A stretch of DNA of 64,000 bases, taken from positions 45,476,412-45,540,411 of the forward strand of contig OW799234.1 in the NCBI GenBank assembly GCA_941918925.1, in the 5' to 3' direction. The stretch comes from Phyto melanocephala (Eukaryota > Arthropoda > Insecta > Diptera > Rhinophoridae). The position numbers and the translations under genes are program-made. Positions 1 through 63,100 of the stretch are shown here, one piece after another; position 1 is the stretch's first letter; each line of letters starts with the position of its first letter. The notes below the pieces were generated by a model. It saw only the letters and a list, made by a program, of their open reading frames with translations. It was not told where the DNA came from and did no database searches.

Positions 1-2407
1 TGCAAAAAAGAATCAAATAAAAAATGTTTAAAGCTATTTGCGTTGCTATTGAGTTGTTGAGTTTGGGGAAGAATATTCCAAAGACGCGCCGCGTGTATAA
101 AGAAGTGCCATTCAGATACAAGAAGAGGGTGTAAAGGAATTATAATCTTTTTTCCTCTAGGTGATCTGGCAAGCCTAATCTTGTCTATAAGATATTGAGG
201 AGCTTCTGAATAAATAATCTTATGCAAAAATAATAGAACACGTATGTTAAGAAGATTATCAAAGGAAACACCGTACAGTTAAGCGGAAAAATTAGAAGCA
301 TGGTCATATCTTCTCAAACCATACACATATCTAATTATGTTATTATATAAAACGTTTAATTTCCTTTTACTAATTGAGTCTCAGCTTGCAAAAAGCTCAC
401 AGTCGTAAATTATACCTAGAAGAAGATAGGATTTTGCAAGAAGTTTCCTTATCCCTAAGGGAGTAAAATATTGTGTCGGCCAAAGGCACCTTAGCTTAAT
501 GTAAATTTGGCCTACGAGTGTATTAACATGGTTTGTCCAAGTAAGTGTATTATTAAACATTTTTCCAAGGTTTTTTGCAGCATTAACGATGTTGATCCTT
601 TCCCCATTTATTAGAATGTTATCATCGATAACAGAATCGATCATTTTCTTTCGAATTATTATGCACTTTGATTTATGGGGGTTTAAACAAAGTCCATTCG
701 CTGTTGCCCAACGAAAAATTCTATCCAAATTATCATTAACCCTAGCAATATTTTTATCAATAGATCGTACTGGACTGCTCAAATATAACTGTACATCATC
801 TGCATACATATGAACTTTGCAATGCAAAAGCTGTTTTGGCAAATCATTGGCATAAATTGAAAAAAGTAGTGGTCCCAGAATGGACCCTTGTGGCATACCT
901 CTTGTTAAAGGTTTTAAAGATAATTGAAAATTATTAGAAGATAAAAATTGCAAACGATTCGAAAGATATGAAGACAAAAGACGTGTTGAATTGTTAGAGA
1001 AATTAACGAAGTGCCGAAGCTTTTTGCAAAGTGTGCCATGGTCAACAGTGTCAAAGGCTTTTGAGTGGTTAGGTTAGATCCGGCAGCCGCCCGAAGGCAT
1101 AGCTCACTTGGATCCTCCGAGGGTCCCGTTGTGATTTTGAGTGGTCAAGAAGAATTAAAAAATTTAATTTTCCTTCATCCAGTTCACGTCGTATATTTTT
1201 ACAAAAACATCCAATAAGGCAGATACACAGCTATGGTTAGAGCGAAAACCTGATTGATTTTCAGACAATAATTTTTTTTCTTTGATATGTCCCGAAATTT
1301 GAATTTGTAGAATTTTTTCTAGCACCTTAGACAAATAACACAATATAGCTATTGACCTAAATTCTGAATTTGTTTTCGGTATAGGAAATACAATTGCACA
1401 TTTCCATCTGTTCGGAAAAGTACTGGTCATTATGATGGTGTTAAATAAATGTGTTATATATGGCAGGAGTACTGGAAGTAATATCTGAATAAATTTTGGG
1501 TGCATATTGTCGCAGCCCACTGCATTTGACTTAATTAATTTAAAACATGAATAAACTTCAGAATGACTCACGCAAGAGAATTTAAAGACATTATGACCAA
1601 TTTCAAAATCGTTTAACTCTAAATTGGGGAAATTATAAAAACTTTCTTCTACCGCTACAAAAGGTATATTCATGAAGATACTATTTAGCTCTTTAACATC
1701 TACTTGGTCATTAAGAACATTTTGTGTACTACCAATACCAATTTCCCGAATGTAATTCCATGTTTGCTTGGAACCAGCTGCAGAGTCGAAACGTCTTGAA
1801 TAATACTCAGTTTTTGCAATTCTAATGCTCATATTCACTTTTTTCTGGCAGCTTTAAATACTTCTTTCGACTCAGGGGTTCTGAAACGTTTCCACCTTAA
1901 GTATGCAAGGTCCCGCTTATGAATTAGAAACTTTATATGAGAAGAAAACCAAGGCTTTGTACTAGCGGATGTATTTATAGATTTAACTAGAACTGTGTTT
2001 TCATACAAATGCTGAATACTGTTTTCAAGAAATAATACTTGCTCATCTACAGGTGGCATATAGTAAACCTGTTCCCAATCGATATATGATATATTTTCCT
2101 GTAGTAAACTATAGTTTATGTTCTTAAAATCGCGAAAATAAATTTTATGTTGTGACAGAGGAATTCTAAAGTTGTATGTCAAAAATATTAAATCATGTTT
2201 CGAAAAACATGAGGCAGACACCTGGTCATATAATAAAATGTTTGATATGTTGGAAACAAAGAAAATTTCAAGCAAAGTTCTATTGGTTGTAGTATGGTGT
2301 GTTGGATTAACTGTAACTGGTGGGAGTAAGTCCGAAAGATAGCATATTATACTAAAAAATTTTTTCCAGAAGTAAAGATAATAAAGAAAAGTCAGAGAAT
2401 TTTTCAA
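1..2407 (-). mobile_element. Broken CR1/jockey-type non-LTR retrotransposon (endonuclease end, RT, C-terminal domain)
   Basis: Read on the minus strand, this is the pol gene of a non-LTR retrotransposon, which would copy its RNA into DNA at a nicked target. From 2407 to 1835 lies the end of the endonuclease domain (TNRTLLEIFFVSN, then SKHDLIFLTY). From 1838 to 1164 lies the start of the reverse transcriptase (FRSIAILCYLSKVLEKIL, SENQSGFRSNHSC). From 1160 to 381 lies the palm, with SKAFDTVDH, GMPQGSILGPLLFSIYANDL and the catalytic YADD. From 380 to 1 lies the conserved C-terminal region (NNIIRYVYGLRRYDH, ARSPRGKKI, SEWHFFIHAARLWN). It is dead: it has frameshifts near 1836 and between 977 and 1164, an in-frame stop near 280, and no upstream endonuclease (5' truncated near 2407). 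The 3' end lies outside the window. Clade assignment to CR1-like rather than jockey proper is by motif resemblance only. Confidence 0.9.
1070..1134. mobile_element. 65-bp SINE-like insertion inside the RT gene
   Basis: The insert begins TAGGTTAGATCC and ends GGGTCCCGTTGTGA. It is flanked by an exact 11-bp target duplication TTTTGAGTGGT (1059-1069 and 1135-1145). Removing it restores the SKAFDTVDH block of the reverse transcriptase, so it arrived after the retrotransposon. The duplication length suits target-primed insertion. The TAGGTTAG start and the GTCCCGTTGTGA end look like a short dispersed dipteran repeat, but I cannot name the family. Confidence 0.75.
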
Positions 2408-7116: not shown

Positions 7117-8058
7117 TCTATATATATAAAAATCAATGTGTGTTTGTATGTTTGTATGTTTGTTTGTGCTTCATAGACGGTTAAACGGCTGGACCGATTT
7201 CCTTGAAATTTTCACAGAATCTTTCTGTATGACTGGAAGGAACTATAGGCTATACTTTGGTTTGAAATTGTAAGTGGGCGGGGTACCACGCCCTATTAAA
7301 TAATAAATATTATATATCACGAAAGTTAATGCAGCTAGAATCTTCAAATTAAGTACGGTAAACTTTGACATCCACACGAACATTTGGGTAAAAAATGGGC
7401 GGACTTTCAATAGTAGGCGTGGCCACATGAATTAAATACTAAATTTCGTATATTTGGAAAACGATATCGATTAGAGTACTAAAATTTTGAAAGAGCAATT
7501 TTGACACCCAAATAAACATTTCTGGAAAAAATGGGTACAACACAAATAGTGGGCGTGACAGCTCTCATAGCAATTGAATACTAAAATTCGTATATCTGGG
7601 AAGCAATAATAGTTAGAGTACCCAAATTTCGCACGAGAAGCTTTAACATCTATATGACTATTTTGATAAGAAATGGATGCTTTAGTAATAGTGGGCGTGG
7701 CACCTGTCATATGAATTAAATACAAAAATTCAAGCAATAATAGTTAGAGTACTCAAATTTCGCACGAGAAGCTTTGACAGCTATACGTATATTTTGATAA
7801 GAAATGGATGCTTTAGTAATAGTGGGCGTGGCACCTGTTATATGAATTAAATACAAAAATTCGTATATCTGGGAAGCGATAATAGTTAGAGTACCCAAAT
7901 TTTGCAAGAGACACTTTGACGTCTATATGATTATTTGAATAAGAAATGATTGATTTATTAATAGTAGGCGTGGCACTTGCAAAATAAATATATTTTTGAA
8001 CTATAAAATTTTTATTTCATTACGATGGGGGTGGCGAAGCACACCGGGTATTAGCTAG
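7117..8058 (+). mobile_element. Helitron B, non-autonomous, with internal tandem modules
   Basis: Starts TCTATATATATAAAAATC after an A and ends with a GGGGTGGCGAAGCACACCGG stem region, then TTAG and CTAG at 8055-8058 before a T. These are full Helitron ends and insertion context. The interior is a ladder of ~130-150-bp imperfect repeats, each with a GTGGGCGTGGCACCTGT-type box followed by TATATGAATTAAATAC and AATAGTTAGAGTAC. It codes for nothing; the reading frames inside are by-products of the repeats. Confidence 0.85.
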
Positions 8059-8156: not shown

Positions 8157-9027
8157 AAACAAGTAAGAGCGCTATATTCGGCCGTGCCGAAACTTATATA
8201 CCCTTCACAACGTGAATTCATGCAATAACAGTGGTTTGTGTCACCATTTATCCCATATGAAATACGTACATACATATAAAAACATACATATATAAAAACG
8301 TCCCATTGTAAAATTATAAATTTACGTATGAATGTTAAAAAAAAACAAAAAAAAAAAAAAAAAATTTTAAAAAAATTTAAAAAAAAAATTTAAAAAAAAA
8401 TTTTTTTTTAAAAAAAAAATTTTTTAAAAAATTATTATGTATATAATATATATAAAACAAAAAAAAAATAAAAAAAAAAATTTAAAAAAAAAAAATTAAA
8501 AAAAAAATAATAAAAATATAAATAATATATTATATAAAAAATAAAAAAAAAAAATAAAAAAAAATAAAAAAAAAATAAAAAAAAAAATTTAAAAAAAAAT
8601 TTTTTTGGCTCAGCTGGGATTCGATGCCACGTTTTTTCTAACCAGTATACACGTTTGTATGTATGTTGTTGTTGTAATGTTGCTTTTGTGAAAAAAAAAT
8701 CGAGGTGGTCGTGGGTTTTTGCTCATATCTCAGTTGTTTATGTACCGATGTTTCTGATTTTCAATAGCGATCTACTCCCGAATATTTCTGATATTTTAAT
8801 ACCTCACCCGAGTCCAAGCGATCTCGGGGGGCTTCAAAAAGTTGATTTCAACATACACACGGACAGACGGACAGACGGACAGACTGACAGCGCTTAATCG
8901 ACTCCCCTATTCATAAGCTTTCAGAAAATATATACTTTATGGGGTCGGAAATCAAAATTGTAGAAATTTCACACGGAATGACAAACCTATATATACCCTT
9001 TTTCACTGTGTGAAGGGTATAAAAAAA
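8157..9027 (-). mobile_element. DINE-1-like element, subfamily A
   Basis: Minus orientation. The plus strand begins AAACAAGTAAGAGCGCTATA, then the inverted motif TTCGGCCGTGCCGAA and TATATACCCTTCACAACG. It passes through a long A/T block (8340-8610), the (ACGGACAG)n minisatellite near 8860 and TACTTTATGGGGTCGGAAAT, and closes GAAGGGTATAAAA. This matches the layout of Drosophila DINE-1/INE-1, a Helentron-related non-autonomous family: TTATACCC start, CCATAAAGTATATAT, GTCCGTCTG minisatellite, CGGC..GCCG-type 3' end. It carries no genes. Confidence 0.85.
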
Positions 9028-11027: not shown

Positions 11028-11963
11028 CTAGCCAAACCCGGCGCGCGTTGCTACGCCCCTTAATGAATCAAATTGCATTCTTAATTTTAATTGAATATCA
11101 AGTGCATAAACCTAAAAATTTTAATTTTTTTATGGGCGTGGCCCTGCCCACTTTTCTAATCACGAAATTGTAAAGTCAATATGTGCGCAAAGTTTCAGAA
11201 AAATCGGTCCAGTGCAAGTACTTCAAAATGATACCTTTTTTTATAGGCGTGGCACTGCCCACTTTTCTAATCACGAAATTTTAAAGTCATGACAGCTCAG
11301 TATGTGTGCAAAGTTTCAGAAAAATCGGTCCAGCGCAAGTACCTCAAAATTATAACTTTTTTTTATGGGCGTGGCTCTGCCCACTTTTCTAATCACGAAA
11401 TCATAAGGTCATGATAGCTCAATATGTGTGCAAAGTTTCAGAAAAATCGGTCCAGTGCAAGTACCTCAAAATGATACCTTTTTTTTAATGGGCGTGGCAC
11501 TGCCCACTTTTCTAATGAGGAAAGTGTAAAGTCATGATAGCTCAGTATGTTTGCAAGGTTTCAGAAAATTCGGTCCAGTGCAAGTAGCTAAAACTGATAA
11601 CTAATTTTTTATGGGCGTGGCCCCGCCCACTTTTTCAATCACGAAATTATAAAGCCATGACAGCTCAATATGTGTGCAAAGTTTCAGAAAAATCGGTCCA
11701 GTGCAAGTACCTAAAAATTAAAACCTTTTTAGGGGCGTGGCCCCGCCCACTTTTCTTATCACGAAATTATTTAGTCATGACAGCTCGATATGTGTGCAAA
11801 GTTTCAGAAAAATCGGTCAAGTGCAAGTAGCTAAAACTGATAACTAATTTTTTATGGGCGTGGCTCCGCCCACTTTTTTTCACCCATAAACACTCCCTGG
11901 TATGTGTACAACAACTTACCAAAGTTTGAGCCCGATCGGTTTTACAGTTTCGGAGTCTATAGC

Positions 11964-19627: not shown

Positions 19628-20400
19628 GAAACAAGTAAGAGCGCTATATTCGGCCGTGCCGAATCTTATATACCCTTCACAACGTGTAGTGCAATAACAG
19701 TAGTTTGTTTCACCATTCATCCCATATGAAATACGTACATACATATAAAAAAATACATATATAAAAACGTCCCACTGTAAAATTATAAATTCACGCATTT
19801 ATGTTAAAAAAACAAAATAAAAATTTAAAAAAAAAATTAAAAAAAAAAATTTTTTAAAAAATTAAAAAAAAAATTTAAAAAATAAATTAAAAAAAAATTA
19901 TTATGTATATAATATATATAAAACAAAAAAAAAAATTAAAATATAAATAATATATTAAATAAAAAATAAAAAAAAAAATAAAAAAAAAGTTTTTTTGGCT
20001 CTGCTGGGATTCGATGCCACGTTTGTATGTATGTTGTTGTTGTAATGTTGTTTTTGTGAAAAAAAATCGAGGTGGTCGTGGGTTTTTGCTCATATCTCAG
20101 TTGTTTATGTACCGATGCTTCTGATTTTCAATACCGATCTACTCCCGAATATTTCTGATATTTTCATACCTTACCCGGGTCCAAGCGATGTCGGGGCGCT
20201 TCAAAAAGTTGATTTCAACATACACACGGACATACGGTCAGACGGACAGACTGACAGACTGGCAGGGCTTAATCGACTCCCCTATTCATAAGCTTTCAGA
20301 AAATATATACTTTATGGGGTCGGAAATCAAAATTGTAGAAATTTCACACGGAATGACAAACCTATATATACCCTTTTTAACTGTGTGAAGGGTATAAAAA
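19628..20400 (-). mobile_element. DINE-1-like element, subfamily A
   Basis: Runs from GAAACAAGTAAGAGCGCTAT to GAAGGGTATAAAAA. It has the same A/T block, GAGGTGGTCGTGGGTTTTTG, the GACGGACAGACTGACAG minisatellite and GGGGTCGGAAATCAAAATTG as the copy at 8157-9027. A shorter A-rich block and fewer minisatellite units account for the length difference. Confidence 0.9.
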
Positions 20401-22564: not shown

Positions 22565-23682
22565 CGTATAAGATATTACCTTACACTGTTTCGTTTTTGT
22601 CTTTGATTGGAAATTACTAGGAGCAAAAAACCATTGACATTTACAAAAGTTACAAGCCTCAAAAGGTTTTTAAGCCTTTGGTTTCCAACTTTGACTAAAT
22701 GTGTAGCTATGCAAATTCAACTATTGAAAAGATTTGGTCTTTCTCTACGAGCCCCAGTTTGCTTTATATAATTCGAATAAGTAACTTAGAACCACTGTGC
22801 GATTGTATGATGATTATGATGATGATAATGATGATTGTAATATGATATTTCCATAACACTTAAACCAAACTCAAGAAGTTAAAAAATAATATATGGGCGG
22901 ACATTAATTTAGTTCTGTTGTTGTTTAATTTGTATTTCTGACTGTCGGTCTTCATTAGCAACAACAACAAAATACACATATGTATCTAAGAAATACAACA
23001 CCTACTCTTATATCTTTATCTTTTGTCAATGTTGTTGAAAACTGGTCTGTTCAAATCGCTTTTTTTCATCTGCATACTGTTAAGTAAAAGTTGTTGAACT
23101 TTGTTTTCCCTGCTTTTTAGGTCAAATATTTAAATGATGCTTCAATACGTAGGTTTTTAAAATTATTTTTTTAATTCATTGGTTAAAGCCATAATTTTGT
23201 TTTTTATATCTTATCGTTAACGTTTAATCAAAACATCATTGTTGTACGTTTTAAAATCTCTTTTAATAAAAAGTTTAAAATACAAATGTATGTAAAATAC
23301 AGATTTCGTTCTCAAAGAACAGTTTTGATTGTTTATGTTATTTTGATATTTAAAAAGAATTTACATATACTATTTCGGGTTATTTTTCTTTTTTTAATCT
23401 AATGTTTTTGAATGAAAGCAAAACACGATAAAATTGATTTTATGTTATAGACATTAAAGCTTGAATGTGTTTTGGGCTATGTGACTGCAATAGCTCACGT
23501 GCATATAGCGTTAATTAATTTTCTACACAATTTTCAGAGTAAATTTGGCAGCATTTTTATCATTAGTATTGGAAGAAAAAAATTTCAATTTAATTTATTT
23601 TCGCAATATTTTTTCTTAGACTTGCAACTTTCATTAGTAAATTTATTTCCATCGACATTTTCTGTTTTTATGAAAGAATAAA
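22565..23682. other. Intergenic, no gene seen
   Basis: AT-rich, with a short GAT-rich microsatellite at 22806-22835. No gene or repeat ends recognised. Confidence 0.5.
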
Positions 23683-23730
23683 TGAACTTAAGCCAAATTA
23701 AAAAATGGTTCACATTGAAAATGTAATTTC
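23683..23730 (-). repeat. 45-bp box shared with the ribozyme satellite unit
   Basis: AATGAACTTAAGCCAAATTA, then AAAAAATGGTTCACATT, matches a segment of every 543-bp unit at 32612-36237 with few mismatches. The match stops abruptly on both sides. A decayed hammerhead-like motif lies ~90 bp downstream, which suggests both are relics of one Penelope/retrozyme-type lineage. Confidence 0.6.
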
Positions 23731-24691: not shown

Positions 24692-25404
24692 GTTTTAATA
24701 CCCTTCACCTGTGGTGCACAAGGGTATATATAGCTTTGTCATTCCGTTTGTAATTTCTACAATTTTCATTTCCGACACCACAAAGTATATATTTTCTGAA
24801 AGCTTATGAATAGAGGAGTCGATTAAGCCCTGACCGTCTGTCCGTCTGCCCGTCTGTCCGTGTGTTGGTTGAAATCAACTTTTAGAAGCAACTATATGTT
24901 CCTCAGATCTGTGTATGGTATCAATCTCTTGGAAATATCCAGGAATGAATCGTTATTGAAATTCAGCACAATCGGCCTATAACTTTCTGAGATATGAGCA
25001 AAAAACCACGACCACCTCGTTTTTTTTCACAATTACAACATATATACATACATACATATATTGGTTAGAGTAAATGTGGCATCGAATCCCAGCTGAGCCA
25101 AAATTTTTTTTTTATTTTATATATTATTTATATTTTTTTTTATATATTTATTTTTAATTTTTTTAAAAAATTAAAAAAAAAATTTTTTTTTAATTTTTTG
25201 TGTAATTTTTTTTCTTGTTTTTTTTTTAGAAACATACATACGTAAACTCAATTTATAATTTTACAATGGTATGTTTTTTACATGTATGTGTGTACGTGTT
25301 TTATATGAGATGAATGGTGATACAAACAATTGTTATTGCATGACTACACGTTGTGAAGGGTATATAAGATTCAGCACGGTCGAATATAGCACTGTTACTT
25401 GTTA
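24692..25404 (+). mobile_element. DINE-1-like element, subfamily A2
   Basis: Plus orientation: TTTTAATACCCTTCACCTGT at the 5' end, CACAAAGTATATATTTTCTG, GACCGTCTGTCCGTCTGCCC, and GAAATCAACTTTTAGAAGC. After a T-rich block it finishes with GTTGTGAAGGGTATATAAGA, CAGCACGGTCGAATATAGCA and CTGTTACTTGTT. Same family as 21286-22069 in the opposite direction. Confidence 0.9.
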
Positions 25405-31378: not shown

Positions 31379-31784
31379 TAGAGCACATGTACATACATAC
31401 TTATATGAACATACAGCTACAGACAATTTAATAGTTTTTACGCTTAATTTTAGTTTTTAATAGCAAATTTTATTTTATGAGGTTTTAATTTTCTTTTCTT
31501 TTTTCGTTAATTTAAAAGTTTATAAACAAAAATCATATTTATAAAAAGTTTTCATTATTTTTTACATTTTTTTAACACATATTTATGATTAATGCAAGCA
31601 CAAGCATATGGCTGCTTCTTAAAGAATATTTTCATAACACATAGCCTACGTACAATATATGTATATAATTATTATATTTTCAAATAGTGATAATGATATT
31701 TTAATACATTTTTAAAATTCTGTAGTTTTTGTTTACAGGTTGGCCATTTTAGCAGTTTTAGTGCGAGCTTAAGCGCTTTTTTTA

Positions 31785-32330
31785 TACCCTTCACACAGTG
31801 AAAAAGGGTATATATAGGTTTGTCATTCCGTGCGAAATTTCTACAATTTTGATTTCCGACCCCATAAAGTATATATTTTCTGAAAGCTTATGAATAGGGG
31901 AGTCGATTAAGCCCTGTCAGTCTGACCGTCTGTCCGTGTGTATGTTGAAATCAACTTTTTAAAGCCCCCCGACATCGCTTGGACTCGGGTGAGGTATCAA
32001 AATATCAGAAATATTCGGGAGTAGATCGGTATTAAAAATCAGAAACATCGGTACATAAACAACTGAGATATGAGCGAAAACCCACGACCACCTCGATTTT
32101 TTTTTCACAAAAACAACATTACAACAACAACATACATACATACAAACGTGTATACTGGTTAGAGAAAACGTGGCATCGAATCCCAGCTGAGGCAAAAAAA
32201 AATTTTTTTATTGTTTTTATATTTTTTTTTTATTTTTTTTATTTTTTTTTATTTTTTATTTAATATATTATTTATATTTTTATTATTATTTTTTTTTAAT
32301 TTTTTTTCAAATATTTTTTTTTGTGTTAAA
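31785..32330 (+). mobile_element. DINE-1-like element, subfamily A, left half (split copy)
   Basis: Plus orientation: TTTATACCCTTCACACAGTG, GGGTATATATAGGTTTGTCA, GACCCCATAAAGTATATATT, GTCAGTCTGACCGTCTGTCC, then CGTGGCATCGAATCCCAGCT and the A/T block. The element's right half resumes at 36238 after ~3.9 kb of inserted palindrome and satellite. Confidence 0.9.
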
Positions 32331-32363
32331 TAAGTATTGTAGACCTTTTTTGTTGTTTATATA

Positions 32364-32585
32364 TTTTGTTGTAGATTTTTGTTTGGCTTTAGGTCATAAA
32401 AATTCAATTTTGTTGTTTTATTTTTAAAGAAAATATTTTAAATTTTTTTATTTATTTTATTCCAATATTAGGAAATCGAAATATTGGAATAAAATAAATA
32501 AAGAAATTTAAAATATTTTTTTTAAAAATAAAACAACAAAATTGAATTTTTATGACCTAAAGCCAAACAAAAATCTACAACAAAA
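32364..32585. repeat. 222-bp near-perfect palindrome
   Basis: Arm 32364-32469 (TTTTGTTGTAGATTTTTGTT ... TTCCAATATT) is matched by its complement at 32480-32585 (AATATTGGAATAAAATAAAT ... CAACAAAA), with a 10-nt spacer AGGAAATCGA. Arms are ~106 bp with few mismatches (AAAGAAAAT versus AAAAAAAAT-type differences). It directly precedes the ribozyme satellite and is not seen elsewhere in the window. Confidence 0.9.
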
Positions 32586-32743
32586 AAATTTTTTTTGTTT
32601 TATATTTATTATATATATTTATTAAATTTTAATGTGAACCATTTTTTATTTTGGCTTAAGTTCATTTGTTATTTATTTAATTTTATAATTCAAATTAAAT
32701 TAAATTGTAACCATTTTAGGAATATTCTTTCTAAAAATCATTT

Positions 32744-32811
32744 CCGATATTAGCCGAGTGGAATGCATTTTCGAAATCAGCTACGATTTCATCATCAGCA
32801 CTCTTTATCGG
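32744..32811 (-). ncRNA. Hammerhead ribozyme, unit 1
   Basis: Minus-strand copy of the fold detailed at 35463-35530: stem I, CUGAUGA, stem II hairpin, GAAA, palindromic stem III, predicted cleavage after the C of AUUC. No base differs from that copy. Confidence 0.85.
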
Positions 32812-33286
32812 TATACTACTATGTAACCTAAAATTCCTATTTATGTTACAATTGAATGAAATTTGAATTAGTGAATCTTAGTATTATTTTTCATATTTTG
32901 TTGAATATTTAATTTCACCTATCAAATGACAATTCATAATTCAACATGTTCATATTCTTCTATATTCGTAATACATTTTCGTTATGCTTTCAATATCCAT
33001 CCTTTGGCTGGAATTATTGAAAACAAGGTTGTATTTACATTTTCATTTATATAAGTCCATCTAGGTGATAGACACTGAACAATAAATTCTTGAATGTCAT
33101 TAACACCGTGCCATGTGTGTTATAATTATATATTTATATTTTATTCGAACTTTTTTTCTATATATTAAATTTTAATGTGAACCATTTTTTATTTTGGCTT
33201 AAGTTCATTTGTTATTTATTTAATTTTATAATTCAAATTAAATTAAATTGTAACCATTTTAGGAATATTCTTTCTAAAAATCATTT

Positions 33287-33354
33287 CCGATATTAGCCGA
33301 GTGGAATGCATTTTCGAAATCAGCTACGATTTCATCATCAGCACTCTTTATCGG
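33287..33354 (-). ncRNA. Hammerhead ribozyme, unit 2
   Basis: Identical to unit 1, exactly 543 bp further on, so a minus-strand transcript would be cut into unit-length RNAs. Confidence 0.85.
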
Positions 33355-33829
33355 TATACTACTATGTAACCTAAAATTCCTATTTATGTTACAATTGAAT
33401 GAAATTTGAATTAGTGAATCTTAGTATTATTTTTCATATTTTGTTGAATATTTAATTTCACCTATCAAATGACAATTCATAATTCAACATGTTCATATTC
33501 TTCTATATTCGTAATACATTTTCGTTATGCTTTCAATATCCATCCTTTGGCTGGAATTATTGAAAACAAGGTTGTATTTACATTTTCATTTATATAAGTC
33601 CATCTAGGTGATAGACACTGAACAATGAATTCTTGAATGTCATTAACACCGTGCCATGTGTGTTATAATTATATATTTATATTTTATTCGAACTTTTTTT
33701 CTATATATTAAATTTTAATGTGAACCATTTTTTATTTTGGCTTAAGTTCATTTGTTATTTATTTAATTTTATAATTCAAATTAAATTAAATTGTAACCAT
33801 TTTAGGAATATTCTTTCTAAAAATCATTT

Positions 33830-33897
33830 CCGATATTAGCCGAGTGGAATGCATTTTCGAAATCAGCTACGATTTCATCATCAGCACTCTTTATCGG
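33830..33897 (-). ncRNA. Hammerhead ribozyme, unit 3
   Basis: Same 68-nt sequence as units 1 and 2, in phase with the 543-bp period. Confidence 0.85.
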
Positions 33898-34372
33898 TAT
33901 ACTACTATGTAACCTAAAATTCCTATTTATGTTACAATTGAATGAAATTTGAATTAGTGAATCTTAGTATTATTTTTCATATTTTGTTGAATATTTAATT
34001 TCACCTATCAAATGACAATTCATAATTCAACATGTTCATATTCTTCTATATTCGTAATACATTTTCGTTATGCTTTCAATATCCATCCTTTGGCTGGAAT
34101 TATTGAAAACAAGGTTGTATTTACATTTTCATTTATATAAGTCCATCTAGGTGATAGACACTGAACAATGAATTCTTGAATGTCATTAACACCGTGCCAT
34201 GTGTGTTATAATTATATATTTTTATTTTATTCGAACTTTTTTTCTATATATTAAATTTTAATGTGAACCATTTTTTATTTTGGCTTAAGTTCATTTGTTA
34301 TTTATTTAATTTTATAATTCAAATTAAATTAAATTGTAACCATTTTAGGAATATTCTTTCTAAAAATCATTT

Positions 34373-34440
34373 CCGATATTAGCCGAGTGGAATGCATTTT
34401 CGAAATCAGCTACGATTTCATCATCAGCACTCTTTATCGG
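34373..34440 (-). ncRNA. Hammerhead ribozyme, unit 4
   Basis: Last minus-strand copy before the array inverts. The following partial unit (34803-34863) stops before the ribozyme. Confidence 0.85.
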
Positions 34441-34919
34441 TATACTACTATGTAACCTAAAATTCCTATTTATGTTACAATTGAATGAAATTTGAATTAG
34501 TGAATCTTAGTATTATTTTTCATATTTTGTTGAATATTTAATTTCACCTATCAAATGACAATTCATAATTCAACATGTTCATATTCTTCTATATTCGTAA
34601 TACATTTTCGTTATGCTTTCAATATCCATCCTTTGGCTGGAATTATTGAAAACAAGGTTGTATTTACATTTTCATTTATATAAGTCCATCTAGGTGATAG
34701 ACACTGAACAATGAATTCTTGAATGTCATTAACACCGTGCCATGTGTGTTATAATTATATATTTTTATTTTATTCGAACTTTTTTTCTATATATTAAATT
34801 TTAATGTGAACCATTTTTTATTTTGGCTTAAGTTCATTTGTTATTTATTTAATTTTATAATTATATAATTTTCATTCAATTGTAACATAAATAGGAATTT
34901 TAGGTTACATAGTAGTATA

Positions 34920-34987
34920 CCGATAAAGAGTGCTGATGATGAAATCGTAGCTGATTTCGAAAATGCATTCCACTCGGCTAATATCGG
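34920..34987 (+). ncRNA. Hammerhead ribozyme, inverted unit 1
   Basis: First plus-strand copy, ~55 bp after the inversion point near 34866. Full stem I, core, stem II and stem III are present. Confidence 0.85.
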
Positions 34988-35462
34988 AAATGATTTTTAG
35001 AAAGAATATTCCTAAAATGGTTACAATTTAATTTAATTTGAATTATAAAATTAAATAAATAACAAATGAACTTAAGCCAAAATAAAAAATGGTTCACATT
35101 AAAATTTAATATATAGAAAAAAAGTTCGAATAAAATATAAATATATAATTATAACACACATGGCACGGTGTTAATGACATTCAAGAATTCATTGTTCAGT
35201 GTCTATCACCTAGATGGACTTATATAAATGAAAATGTAAATACAACCTTGTTTTCAATAATTCCAGCCAAAGGATGGATATTGAAAGCATAACGAAAATG
35301 TATTACGAATATAGAAGAATATGAACATGTTGAATTATGAATTGTCATTTGATAGGTGAAATTAAATATTCAACAAAATATGAAAAATAATACTAAGATT
35401 CACTAATTCAAATTTCATTCAATTGTAACATAAATAGGAATTTTAGGTTACATAGTAGTATA

Positions 35463-35530
35463 CCGATAAAGAGTGCTGATGATGAAATCGTAGCTGATTT
35501 CGAAAATGCATTCCACTCGGCTAATATCGG
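35463..35530 (+). ncRNA. Hammerhead ribozyme, inverted unit 2 (reference copy)
   Basis: Stem I outer helix is CCGATA 35463-35468 with TATCGG 35525-35530. The internal loop is AA opposite GGCTAA. Stem I inner helix is GAGTG 35471-35475 with CACTC 35514-35518. The core is CTGATGA 35476-35482. After one extra T, stem II is GAAATC 35484-35489 / GATTTC 35496-35501 with loop GTAGCT. Then GAAA 35502-35505 and the self-complementary stem III AATGCATT (35505-35512). Cleavage is expected after C35513 (a UUC site). All invariant hammerhead core bases are present. The one departure is the extra U between A9 and stem II. Short, loopless stem III is typical of Penelope/retrozyme hammerheads, which are thought to work as dimers in tandem transcripts. 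Confidence 0.88.
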
Positions 35531-36005
35531 AAATGATTTTTAGAAAGAATATTCCTAAAATGGTTACAATTTAATTTAATTTGAATTATAAAATTAAATA
35601 AATAACAAATGAACTTAAGCCAAAATAAAAAATGGTTCACATTAAAATTTAATATATAGAAAAAAAGTTCGAATAAAATATAAATATATAATTATAACAC
35701 ACATGGCACGGTGTTAATGACATTCAAGAATTCATTGTTCAGTGTCTATCACCTAGATGGACTTATATAAATGAAAATGTAAATACAACCTTGTTTTCAA
35801 TAATTCCAGCCAAAGGATGGATATTGAAAGCATAACGAAAATGTATTACGAATATAGAAGAATATGAACATGTTGAATTATGAATTGTCATTTGATAGGT
35901 GAAATTAAATATTCAACAGAATATGAAAAATAATACTAAGATTCACTAATTCAAATTTCATTCAATTGTAACATAAATAGGAATTTTAGGTTACATAGTA
36001 GTATA

Positions 36006-36073
36006 CCGATAAAGAGTGCTGATGATGAAATCGTAGCTGATTTCGAAAATGCATTCCACTCGGCTAATATCGG
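36006..36073 (+). ncRNA. Hammerhead ribozyme, inverted unit 3
   Basis: Third plus-strand copy, unchanged in core and stems. The array ends ~160 bp downstream. Confidence 0.85.
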
Positions 36074-36237
36074 AAATGATTTTTAGAAAGAATATTCCTA
36101 AAATGGTTACAATTTAATTTAATTTGAATTATAAAATTAAATAAATAACAAATGAACTTAAGCCAAAATAAAAAATGGTTCACATTAAAATTTAATATAT
36201 AGAAAAAAAGTTCGAATAAAATATAAATATATAATTA

Positions 36238-36487
36238 TTATATATATTTTAATTATTTTTTAAAAAAATTTTTTTTTTAATTTTTTTTTTAAATTTTTTT
36301 TAAATTTTTTTTTTTAATTTTTTTTTAACATACATACGTAAATTTATAATTTTACATGGGATGTTTTTATATATGTATGTACGTATATCATATGGAATGG
36401 TGATACAAACTACTGTTATTGCATGATTACACGTTGTGAAGGGTATATAAGATTCGGCACGGCCGAATATAGCGCTTTTACTTGTTT
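36238..36487 (+). mobile_element. DINE-1-like element, subfamily A, right half (split copy)
   Basis: Resumes in the A/T block, then AACATACATACGTAAATTTA, ATGGTGATACAAACTACTGT, GTTGTGAAGGGTATATAAGA, TTCGGCACGGCCGAATATAG and CGCTTTTACTTGTTT. It completes the copy begun at 31785. Confidence 0.9.
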
Positions 36488-60100: not shown

Positions 60101-63100
60101 CATGAAGGGATTTTGTTGCAGGAACAAAGCGACTTTTTGACGTTAAATTAACTAATTCTTTTTATCCCTTTATTCGTAAGAAGGGCTGCCATAAATATAC
60201 AATTTATGATTTGTCAGCAGTAGCAGTGGCAATACAAGTATTTAAAAAAGCAAAATTAAGTAAATTTCAAGAAACATAATGACTGATCTTTCTAAAGAAG
60301 AAATTATTGAAGAAATTTGAAAATAAACATAGAGATATTATTTTATTTATTATAAATATTAATATCTTTTCGTCTTGATAATTTTACACAAACTGACAAA
60401 CATAGAAAAAATATTGAACATTGAATTGAATTTACATTGAAACTATAAAAACGTTCAAGTATTTCTAACAAAATTGTTGACCTAACAGAACTGGCTGTTG
60501 AAGCATAGATCTAGATGATGCTGAAAATATAGAATAAATTTTTAATTTGCTAGAATGCTATAAAAATGCAAATAGTTTACCGAATAAAAGAAGACGAAAG
60601 GAGTGGGTAAAACCACGGAGGTTAGAGATATTTCATCTTTTTTTTTGCAAATTCCATAAAATATCATTGCTACCCCGTACTCAACGCCGCACCCCTCACC
60701 AAAAAACTCGTGTCGCAGGAGATATGTCCCTTCATGTAAACACGCTCTTAGCAGTTTAAAAAACCAACACACAATAAAAAAGTATTGCGTTTATGAATGC
60801 AAGAAATAGAAAAACAAAACATATGAAACATTGTTTCTGCCGGCGCCAAATATTCGTAATAAAATTGTGTATGTATTTATGTCCCAAAAAATTAAAAAAC
60901 AAGTTGCCACAAGTATTTAACTAAATTTCTTAGAAAAAAACCTCTAAATGGAAAAAAATTCTGTAATAAATTTTTTATAATAAATCCAAATAGGATTATT
61001 ATCATAAAATCCTAAAAGGTAATATAATTATATTTAAACCTATTTATACTCATGTTTTGTATCACTAATCAGACATACATACATTAATTCTATAAAATTT
61101 CATATTGCCTGGTGTTCAATACATATCAGTAAAACAAATCGTCGTTCGTAAATTATTGTGTGCTATGTGACATACATATAAAACCTATTCAGATAGAACG
61201 CAATAATTTACGAACGACGAAATGTGGCAAAATAAGTCTTTAATAGATGAAAGCCTACCTTAAAATTTGTGTTTTTGTTTTCTCCACAAACGTGATGGAC
61301 CAACTCCAAGAAAAATCACGCTTTTTTTCACATCCCAAATATGCTGTAGTGTTATGCAAGAATATCTCTCGTATAATTGTGCTCTTTTCGTTTTTATCCT
61401 TTTTCGATATGACTATTTTACCATCACGCAATTCACACTGATACACCTTAAACGATTTTGTTTTATTATCGGCAAATTTCAATTCTTTGCCCGGCGTTAC
61501 AGTAGCTAAATTTTTAACTGCTCTCTGTACCTCGTTTAGAATTTCAATAGGTTTTACTACGAGTATATTATTTTTACGATCATCTTCGGGCCAATAAGAC
61601 CAATTGAGTACAACTTCGAAAACTTTACTGTCATGATGTAGAGGACGCTCTAAAGTGCCATTTAAAACAACTTCATGCAATGTCACCTGGTGGGTGGAGA
61701 GCTTCATTTTGGGTGCCAGTTCTTGACAGACTTCATAAGCCGTTTTGGTGGGTGAGATAGTGACATTTATTTGAATTTTTTCCTGATATATTGATTAAAA
61801 CACCCTATAGTGTAAGTTTATATTTAAATATTTTATGCTTAAATTTTTACCTCTGTTGAATTTTCCGGATTTGGATTGAGTGTTATCCATACTTTTAAAT
61901 CTCCTGATTTTTTCACGGTATCCGTTAGGGTTTCAGCAGCAGCATAGTATTTTTGCAAACATGTTAACATTTCTTGTTCTTTTTTCTGAAATCAAAATGT
62001 TTTTAAGTCTCATATTCATACCAAGAAACTGTATGCTAACTAACTAGCCGCTACTTTTTTTTTAATATGTAAAATTCCCTTAAGGAAAGTTAGCAGCTAG
62101 TTAGTTATAAAACAGTTTATTTTTATGAATAACGAAATTGTAATATTTTATTATTTACTCACAATTTCATCTGGTGTTAAGGGGAATAAATTCTTGTGAT
62201 AACTTATTAAATCACACAAAACATCAGCCTCCTTTTGGGAGTAAACCATTTCCTCGTTTTGATGGCTTTGCATTAGTGTAGGCCCCCAAATCATGGTTAA
62301 GTTTTGTATGCTCATTTTGTTTTTCGACTTTTGCGAACTAATAAATGCTAAATGTCCCACCAGTTTTTTAAGCGTTTCCCGTTCAATTACACTCAGGCGG
62401 GCCAACAATTCTTGATATAGTGTTATTTTTTCTGCTGCCGATGTTAGTTCTGAAACGCATATGAAACTTTCCGATAGTTTGCCCATTAGGCGTTCGGGCA
62501 AATCACGCATAAACCGCTTTAATACATTTGCCACATCATGTTCATTATATTCATTACGTGTAATTTCAACATTGAAAGCATCAGAACGAAAAGCTGACAT
62601 TAGTTTTAGTATGGAATTTTCTGAACCAGATTTCCGATAGATACCCTCTGACATCGAACCGTGTATATAGACGAAATTAATACATTTATCCACAATAACG
62701 GGAACATTAAATTTCGTTAACTGTTGATCACCTAACGTGAAACCGTTATTGTGGGCCACCTCACGGATAATGTGTCGCCATATTTTAGTTTCTCTCATAG
62801 AACTCATAATCATATACACTGTAAATGGTGGGGCATCTATCATCAGTATGGGTCCAGATTCGACGTGCAAATTCTTTACACTATCATCACTATCTTTAAG
62901 CACTGTAGGAAGTATAAGGAAATGTTAGAGAATGACTTTTAAAATATTTTTTCTACTTGCCTATGCAACGAGCTTTTCTTAGGTCCATTTTTTCTACATT
63001 CCCAGTTGCTTCGGTTACAAATATAAGACGTCTTTGGGTTTTCTTCAGTACTAACCAAGTGCCACTCCATTCAGATGTTATAGAATTCTAGGAAAATACA

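Follow-up and report, generated by a model that had tools for sequence, protein, structure and literature searches.

A 64,000-nucleotide stretch of the genome of the fly Phyto melanocephala (contig OW799234.1, positions 45,476,412 to 45,540,411; hereafter the window) carries, at 32616-36238, an array of 543-bp units arranged in two arms that point outward, every complete unit containing a hammerhead-like motif. This array is probably a retrozyme-type retroelement, non-coding and non-autonomous, which the Penelope-like elements (PLEs) resident in the same genome would mobilise in trans and which would be inserted by two-ended reverse transcription. The conclusion is carried by features established at the level of the genome sequence: fixed outer ends, usually one of each of two kinds, target-site duplications, outward polarity, variants common to both arms, and the same polarity in the resident PLEs.

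Two-arm insertions with fixed outer ends

The 68-nt hammerhead-like word was found in exactly seven copies in the window, four on the minus strand (32744-32811, 33287-33354, 33830-33897 and 34373-34440) and three on the plus strand (34920-34987, 35463-35530 and 36006-36073, with predicted cuts after 34970, 35513 and 36056, respectively). All five complete cut-to-cut units measured 543 bp, and units 2-5 differed from the first by 0 or 1 base. The left arm (32616-34886, minus strand) comprises 4.18 units and the right arm (34867-36238, plus strand) 2.53 units. The arms overlap by 20 nt at the inner junction (34867-34886), where the left arm stands at unit position 50 and the right arm at position 440. 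The outer end of the left arm, near unit position 141-145, is referred to as short; that of the right arm, near position 182, is long and bears a tail, which is the stretch between both start sites (36198-36237, plus strand; unit positions about 142-181). The longest stop-free stretch in a unit trimer is 56 codons, and no reverse transcriptase frame is present. A sequence-only reading of this DNA had described seven identical 68-nt motifs, an exact 543-bp spacing, four units in one direction followed by about two and a half in the other, and no coding capacity, all in agreement with these measurements.

The 15-mer TTATTATATATATTT occurs at both array ends (32606-32620 and 36235-36249), its last 5 letters at the left and its first 4 letters at the right lying within the aligned arms, and would represent a target-site duplication of at most 15 nt. 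Because this 15-mer consists of A and T only and is partly repetitive, the window by itself is weak proof of a duplication, and the argument is carried by other loci. The host genome (739,753,867 bases in 9 contigs) was searched with the 38-nt core, allowing up to 3 mismatches, and 7,077 occurrences were obtained (3,555 on the plus and 3,522 on the minus strand) vs none on either strand for the reversed pattern, which excludes a chance origin of the core. A loose hammerhead pattern gave 5,971 genome matches, and its control 4. Forty loci were analysed together with the window, 13 of them lying outside the window among 42 matches and 27 taken from the 47 clusters that the first 100 exact matches listed on contig C1 formed; the sample is thus drawn from the best matches and from one contig.

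By alignment, 32 of the 41 loci showed two arms pointing outward and 9 a single arm. The largest array examined held 6.7 plus 4.9 units, and some arms were shorter than one unit. Among the matches listed for the 47 clusters on C1, all 16 two-strand clusters ran minus then plus, the remaining clusters having exact matches on the plus strand only (15) or on the minus strand only (16). The designation of the array as a satellite in the sequence-only reading is not supported: thousands of copies of the element are dispersed through the genome in small two-arm insertions, and the array is a single insertion with its target-site duplication. Local satellite DNA is ruled out by the 7,077 dispersed core copies, the small two-arm insertions and the lack of long head-to-tail blocks. 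The inverted layout, pointed out there as unusual, deserves the notice, but it is not peculiar to this locus and is known for PLEs (PMC3846280). Further families, named B, C and D, keep the hammerhead core with the rest diverged. The units of family B measure about 589-592 bp and likewise form an outward inverted array, and the spacing in family C is 583 bp; places of diverged families lie at L020:4119-6501 and L052:894-1862, and in L050 and L051 near the hammerhead.

From 35 arm pairs, 29 insertions were obtained, six pairs being dropped for an end outside both classes (L015, L020, L021, L022, a diverged pair of L024, and the second alignment row of one L014 insertion). In 25 of the 29 insertions, the outer ends were of the short/long combination, one lying near unit position 141 and the opposite one near 181, about 40 nt apart, and none had two short ends. 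A flank match of at least 9 nt was observed for 23 of the 29 insertions (mismatched-pair controls, 1.6%) and of at least 7 nt for 25 (control, 15.8%); all 21 insertions with a match of at least 10 nt were short/long. The total flank match was 358, a value reached in 0 of 2,000 shuffles (maximum, 186). Since up to 8 nt of arm was tolerated in the matching, for data and control equally, the duplication lengths are upper bounds.

The two arms of a locus also share their variants. For the 20 insertions compared (9 others were excluded, an arm not covering the stretch), two arms differed by 0.85 variants when they belonged to the same locus and by 4.72 when they came from different loci, and 49 variants in all were common to both arms of a locus, a number reached in 0 of 5,000 permutations. 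Complete units were on average 1.07 events apart within an array (133 pairs) and 8.24 between arrays (66 pairs, minimum 1). Later gene conversion could contribute to the shared variants, but not to the fixed ends or the duplications. The fixed outer ends, the flank duplications and the arm-shared variants altogether indicate that an array arises in a single insertion, with reverse transcription proceeding from either DNA end. Independent insertion of the arms and inversion at a later time were both rejected, as one duplication flanks the whole array and the arms share variants.

The same set of evidence bears on an origin as a fold-back DNA transposon, or as a satellite inverted by recombination after insertion. 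Inverted arrays of tandem units do occur, as is generally known, in fold-back transposons. The terminal inverted repeats of such a transposon should, however, end alike, whereas here 40 nt separate the two kinds of end and inner junctions are variable; the single duplication around the whole array, the arm-shared variants, and the thousands of dispersed copies, some with less than one unit per arm, are also contrary to either origin, which we consider very unlikely. Twin priming as in L1 was considered as well, in which the enzyme of a long interspersed nuclear element (LINE) would let the second DNA end prime at chance places within the RNA. Such priming generally yields the same head-to-head polarity and duplications, and a fragment of a LINE-type reverse transcriptase is present in the window. 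Both outer ends are nevertheless fixed, so that the second start is no chance place, and the tail geometry is that of PLEs; we hold this explanation to be very improbable.

Inner junctions and the hammerhead-like motif

Unlike the fixed outer ends, the inner junctions vary between loci. The arms overlapped or lay within 5 nt of each other in 29 of the 35 arm pairs, the remaining 6 having 17 to 52 nt between the arms. None of 70 inner ends was located within 5 nt of the predicted cut, and arms reach 6.7 units. The cDNAs thus ran across the cut site, and the template would be a circle or an uncut multimer. A linear, ribozyme-cut monomer is disfavoured as template by the lack of a peak at the cut, where a uniform distribution would place only about 1.3 of the 70 inner ends. 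In L026, the same 5-A insertion was detected in one unit of each arm, and the array of L013 is a mosaic, both of which hint at templates longer than one unit in these cases; a monomer circle may thus not have served as template for every array.

The union of two arms might alternatively result from self-priming, by which a single cDNA would loop back at the distal end and serve as its own template. This mode was proposed for rotifer PLEs from palindromes at inverted junctions (PMC3846280), and the L014 junction at unit positions 418/418 fits it. Under self-priming, the copied arm should have equal length and the same outer end, but the arms are unequal (1.97 vs 6.44 units in one case, 0.10 vs 0.65 units in another). 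Outer ends 40 nt apart in 25 of 29 insertions would be unexpected, and so would the inner positions of the two arms, which are often far apart in the unit. Self-priming is accordingly given only a slight chance.

By inspection, all seven motifs follow the type I hammerhead plan that the sequence-only reading had assigned to them, with stem I (CCGATA/TATCGG and GAGTG/CACTC), CTGATGA, stem II (GAAATC/GATTTC), GAAA, and a C preceding the predicted cut. The stems, the core and the cut C agree with that assignment, but two details depart from it. One additional U stands between CUGAUGA and stem II, and stem III is represented by two pairs inside AATGCATT, for which only about 2 bp are possible in cis; the self-complementarity of AATGCATT would suit a dimeric ribozyme. 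Among 30 distinct 41-nt cores drawn from the 100 loose-pattern matches listed, 29 carry T and one carries C at the position of the extra residue, the pattern itself fixing CTGATGA, CGAAA and TCCAC, and two 42-nt cores being excluded. One study has reportedly dealt with a viroid hammerhead whose core contains an additional nucleotide.

The core is kept in families that have otherwise diverged to about 70-80% identity, and the helix cells were 91.9% paired across the aligned variants. One stem II pair was represented, among 21 aligned variants, by C-G in 9, U-G in 9 and U-A in 1, and was unpaired in 2. Covariation across the aligned variants did not rise above that of shuffles and fails as proof of the hammerhead fold. 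For the isolated 68-mer, the minimum-energy fold (-16.9 kcal/mol) was not the hammerhead, the hammerhead fold being at -9.9 kcal/mol in a calculation free of tertiary terms. The lack of a covariance-model hit had been named beforehand among the outcomes that would refute the motif, and no such hit was obtained with Rfam, either at gathering score in the whole window or at E up to 10 for 32500-36400. Rfam likewise reported no hammerhead in three resident PLE leader pieces and two related core-bearing loci, so that the missing hit says little and the test is a weak one. The circular 543-nt monomer was predicted to be 56.0% paired, with a stability above all 60 of 60 shuffles. This self-pairing is below the value of more than 70% given for highly self-paired circular retrozyme monomers (PMC4918200), a trait that is descriptive and not a strict criterion. 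Judged from its letters, the motif is a putative active hammerhead.

A reading in which PLEs mobilise the element but the hammerhead is inactive is compatible with the insertion model; a normal transcript of several units would then be the template, with the motif persisting as a relic or as a structure bound by protein. The lack of an Rfam hit, the other fold of the isolated motif and the absence of covariation above shuffles agree with it, as does the hint from L026 of a template longer than one unit, and the ribozyme of an anole PLE is dispensable for insertion in vitro (PMC11167929). Against inactivity stand the retention of the core in families that are otherwise about 70-80% identical and the 91.9% pairing of the helix cells, and we regard the inactive motif as unlikely, though with a chance well worth keeping in mind.

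Resident PLEs and the proposed mode of insertion

PLEs of the same genome were searched with a PLE reverse-transcriptase consensus, and 147 of 1,116 candidates gave scored matches (best E, 2.1e-53; frames up to 873 codons). Grouping within 12 kb yielded 110 clusters, of which 20 contained more than one match and 17 contained both strands; all 17 two-strand clusters point outward. PLEs with long open frames stand in outward tandem arrays, the largest with at least 6 matches, at C3:6155030-6166598, C5:51663627-51683418 and C6:9107526-9121358 among others. The C3 array, the one PLE array measured at both ends, ends at leader positions 454 (right) and 413 (left), giving a 41-nt tail, and the C6 array, read at its right end, has a short end there. 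By inspection, the leaders of two PLE families (L070 and L072) contain a minimal core resembling that of a hammerhead, with an additional A where the element has its extra residue; the strict hammerhead pattern found no match in PLE leaders.

A two-block motif was built from three PLE leaders, consisting of GAYCTYRAGC followed after 28-32 nt by AAGNTCRAN. The family of the window array (family A) carries the candidate blocks GAACTTAAGC and AAGTTCGAA, scoring 22.2 bits, which was reached in 0 of 2,000 shuffles. Block 1, GAACTTAAGC, is present in each unit, as in PLE leaders, and occupies 36154-36163 (plus strand; unit positions 98-107) in the outermost unit, at an offset of 97 from the cut after 36056; block 2, AAGTTCGAA, lies inside the tail at 36208-36216. 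Family B carries GAACTCAAGC and AAGTTCGAC (21.7 bits; 1 of 2,000 shuffles as high). The 394 other window pieces all scored below both family A and family B, the highest at 21.1. The short end is located 34 nt after the start of block 1 in the C3 and C6 PLE arrays and 44 nt in family A. The distance from the cut to block 1, in contrast, is 31-42 nt in PLEs vs 97 in family A, which weakens the likeness. These observations suggest that the cis blocks and the tail are common to the retrozyme and the resident PLEs.

In the mechanism that we infer, an RNA with the 543-nt unit, either a circle or a not-yet-cut multimer, would be recognised via the two cis blocks common to PLEs. The PLE enzyme would open AT-rich DNA by a staggered cut, and a separate cDNA would be primed by each DNA end. 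Priming would take place at two fixed start sites, separated by about 40 nt, with each end normally using a different one. The cDNAs would cross the cut site of the ribozyme, often running around several units, and would then meet and join with little or no homology, leaving an outward inverted array with one short end, one long end and a target-site duplication. For a PLE protein in vitro, both strands are cut and extended, and starts inside the RNA fall at two sites, the tail being the stretch between them (PMC11167929). In a stricter form, each insertion would require a paired PLE complex to draw on both start sites of a single circular hammerhead RNA, with a different site for each DNA end. 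The circle would be copied in rolling-circle fashion from the two sides of the break simultaneously, and the cDNAs would then be joined. This form is offered tentatively, with our doubt slightly outweighing our belief.

A number of observations weigh against mobilisation by PLEs through two-ended reverse transcription. Four of the 29 insertions have two long ends. L035 has no variants common to its arms, and variants private to a locus were on both arms in 10 cases and on one arm in 14. Among the 9 single-arm loci, a duplication at both sides was found only in L036 (12 nt) and L037 (14 nt, together with a 21-nt second arm); L032 gave a match only in low-complexity A/T, and the other six showed no duplication above 7 nt. 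Cis block 2 was chosen after inspection. For family C, the best two-block match scored 16.8 bits, 118 nt past one hammerhead, and its antisense 17.0; the top match at the family D locus has nothing to do with the element. Alignment of whole leaders to PLEs gave no significant result, with 14 to 128 of 300 shuffles scoring as high, and the likeness of tail to tail is weak, with 33 of 4,000 composition-matched pieces and 211 of 5,000 shuffles as good. With the Pfam GIY-YIG model, a single genomic match was obtained, which did not coincide with any listed PLE place, so that the endonuclease of the resident PLEs is putative. The anole PLE starts alike on both strands in vitro, and its ribozyme mutants still inserted, no reads ending at the cut (PMC11167929). 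Finally, the unit of 543 bp (about 589 bp in family B and 583 bp in family C) is longer than usual for metazoan retrozymes, for which repeats of 150-450 bp and RNAs of about 170-400 nt are described (PMC7229834).

The machinery that moves metazoan retrozymes has so far been only a proposal (PMC7229834; later review PMC11722881). The insertion footprint, with two fixed starts, usually one per end, a PLE-like tail and matching cis letters, bears directly on it. The thousands of copies would also form a natural archive of target-primed reverse transcription from two ends, in which the choice of junction, the shape of the template and processivity could be traced. The footprint looks new, and so does the pairing of two starts with a separate one for each DNA end. 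In a partial search of the retrozyme literature, in the parts of the sources available, a head-to-head or inverted array layout was not found, and prior print is possible.

Surroundings of the array and comparison with known systems

The host site of the array is an older dispersed repeat (31777-36487), whose A/T tract serves as target; the array is absent from copies of this repeat near 8157-9027, 19629-20400 and 24693-25403. The left flanks of the retrozymes at L028 and L044 resemble the same older repeat. A 106-bp inverted repeat with a 10-nt spacer (32364-32585) directly adjoins the array on its left, beyond the duplication, and is missing from the other copies of the older repeat. A 55-bp piece at 23673-23727 is 91% alike to the unit stretch around cis block 1 (35057-35110) and ends near the short start site; by eye, TTTCTGTT.TTAT stands on both of its sides, and it is perhaps a tiny insertion of a relative. 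Elsewhere in the window, broken LINE-type reverse transcriptase frames (Pfam RVT_1) lie at 381-1853 (minus strand), and two other tandem arrays at 7545-7976 (period of about 131 bp) and 11098-11878 (about 123 bp). Gene exons with Ras-association and RhoGAP domains were recognised at 61255-62924 (minus strand), their relatives being named ARAP-like; for the RhoGAP-domain frame (62151-62924), 119 relatives were obtained, of which only a few carry a name, and the best of these is 65% identical and from a Drosophila.

The kinship with Penelope-type elements and retrozymes, which the sequence-only reading had pointed out, is supported, as are the hammerhead plan and the non-coding units. Metazoan non-LTR (non-long terminal repeat) retrozymes (Cervera and de la Pena 2020, PMC7229834) resemble the element in their tandem units with type I hammerheads, lack of coding capacity, low GC, target-site duplications when present, and co-existence with PLEs. 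Dispersed insertions with duplications above 4 bp, a retrozyme trait, are also seen here (23 of 29 insertions at 9 nt or more). For retrozymes, those of insects included, a circle as template and PLEs as likely helpers have been put forward, all as proposals (PMC7229834, PMC7761336). The element differs from metazoan retrozymes in its minimal stem III and extra core residue, and outward two-arm insertions with two fixed ends are not mentioned for them in the available parts of PMC7229834. The pDo500 repeat of cave crickets (PMC2808323) is likewise an insect tandem repeat whose unit carries a hammerhead-like motif; it differs in being described as satellite DNA, and the part of that source available mentions no inverted layout.

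Of PLEs, those of Adineta vaga have an inverted pseudo-long terminal repeat (pLTR), a 31-bp tail on one of them and 8-10-bp duplications, and mobilisation in trans and head-to-head as the most frequent order are described for them (PMC3846280); inverted pLTRs and 3' extensions are mentioned for PLEs also in PMC8969392. Unlike PLEs, the element has no reverse transcriptase or endonuclease frame and only about 0.5 kb per unit. It nevertheless resembles them (PMC3846280, PMC11167929) in its head-to-head arms, one of whose ends bears a tail of 30-40 nt, and in having short duplications, AT-rich targets, a minimal hammerhead and microhomology at junctions.

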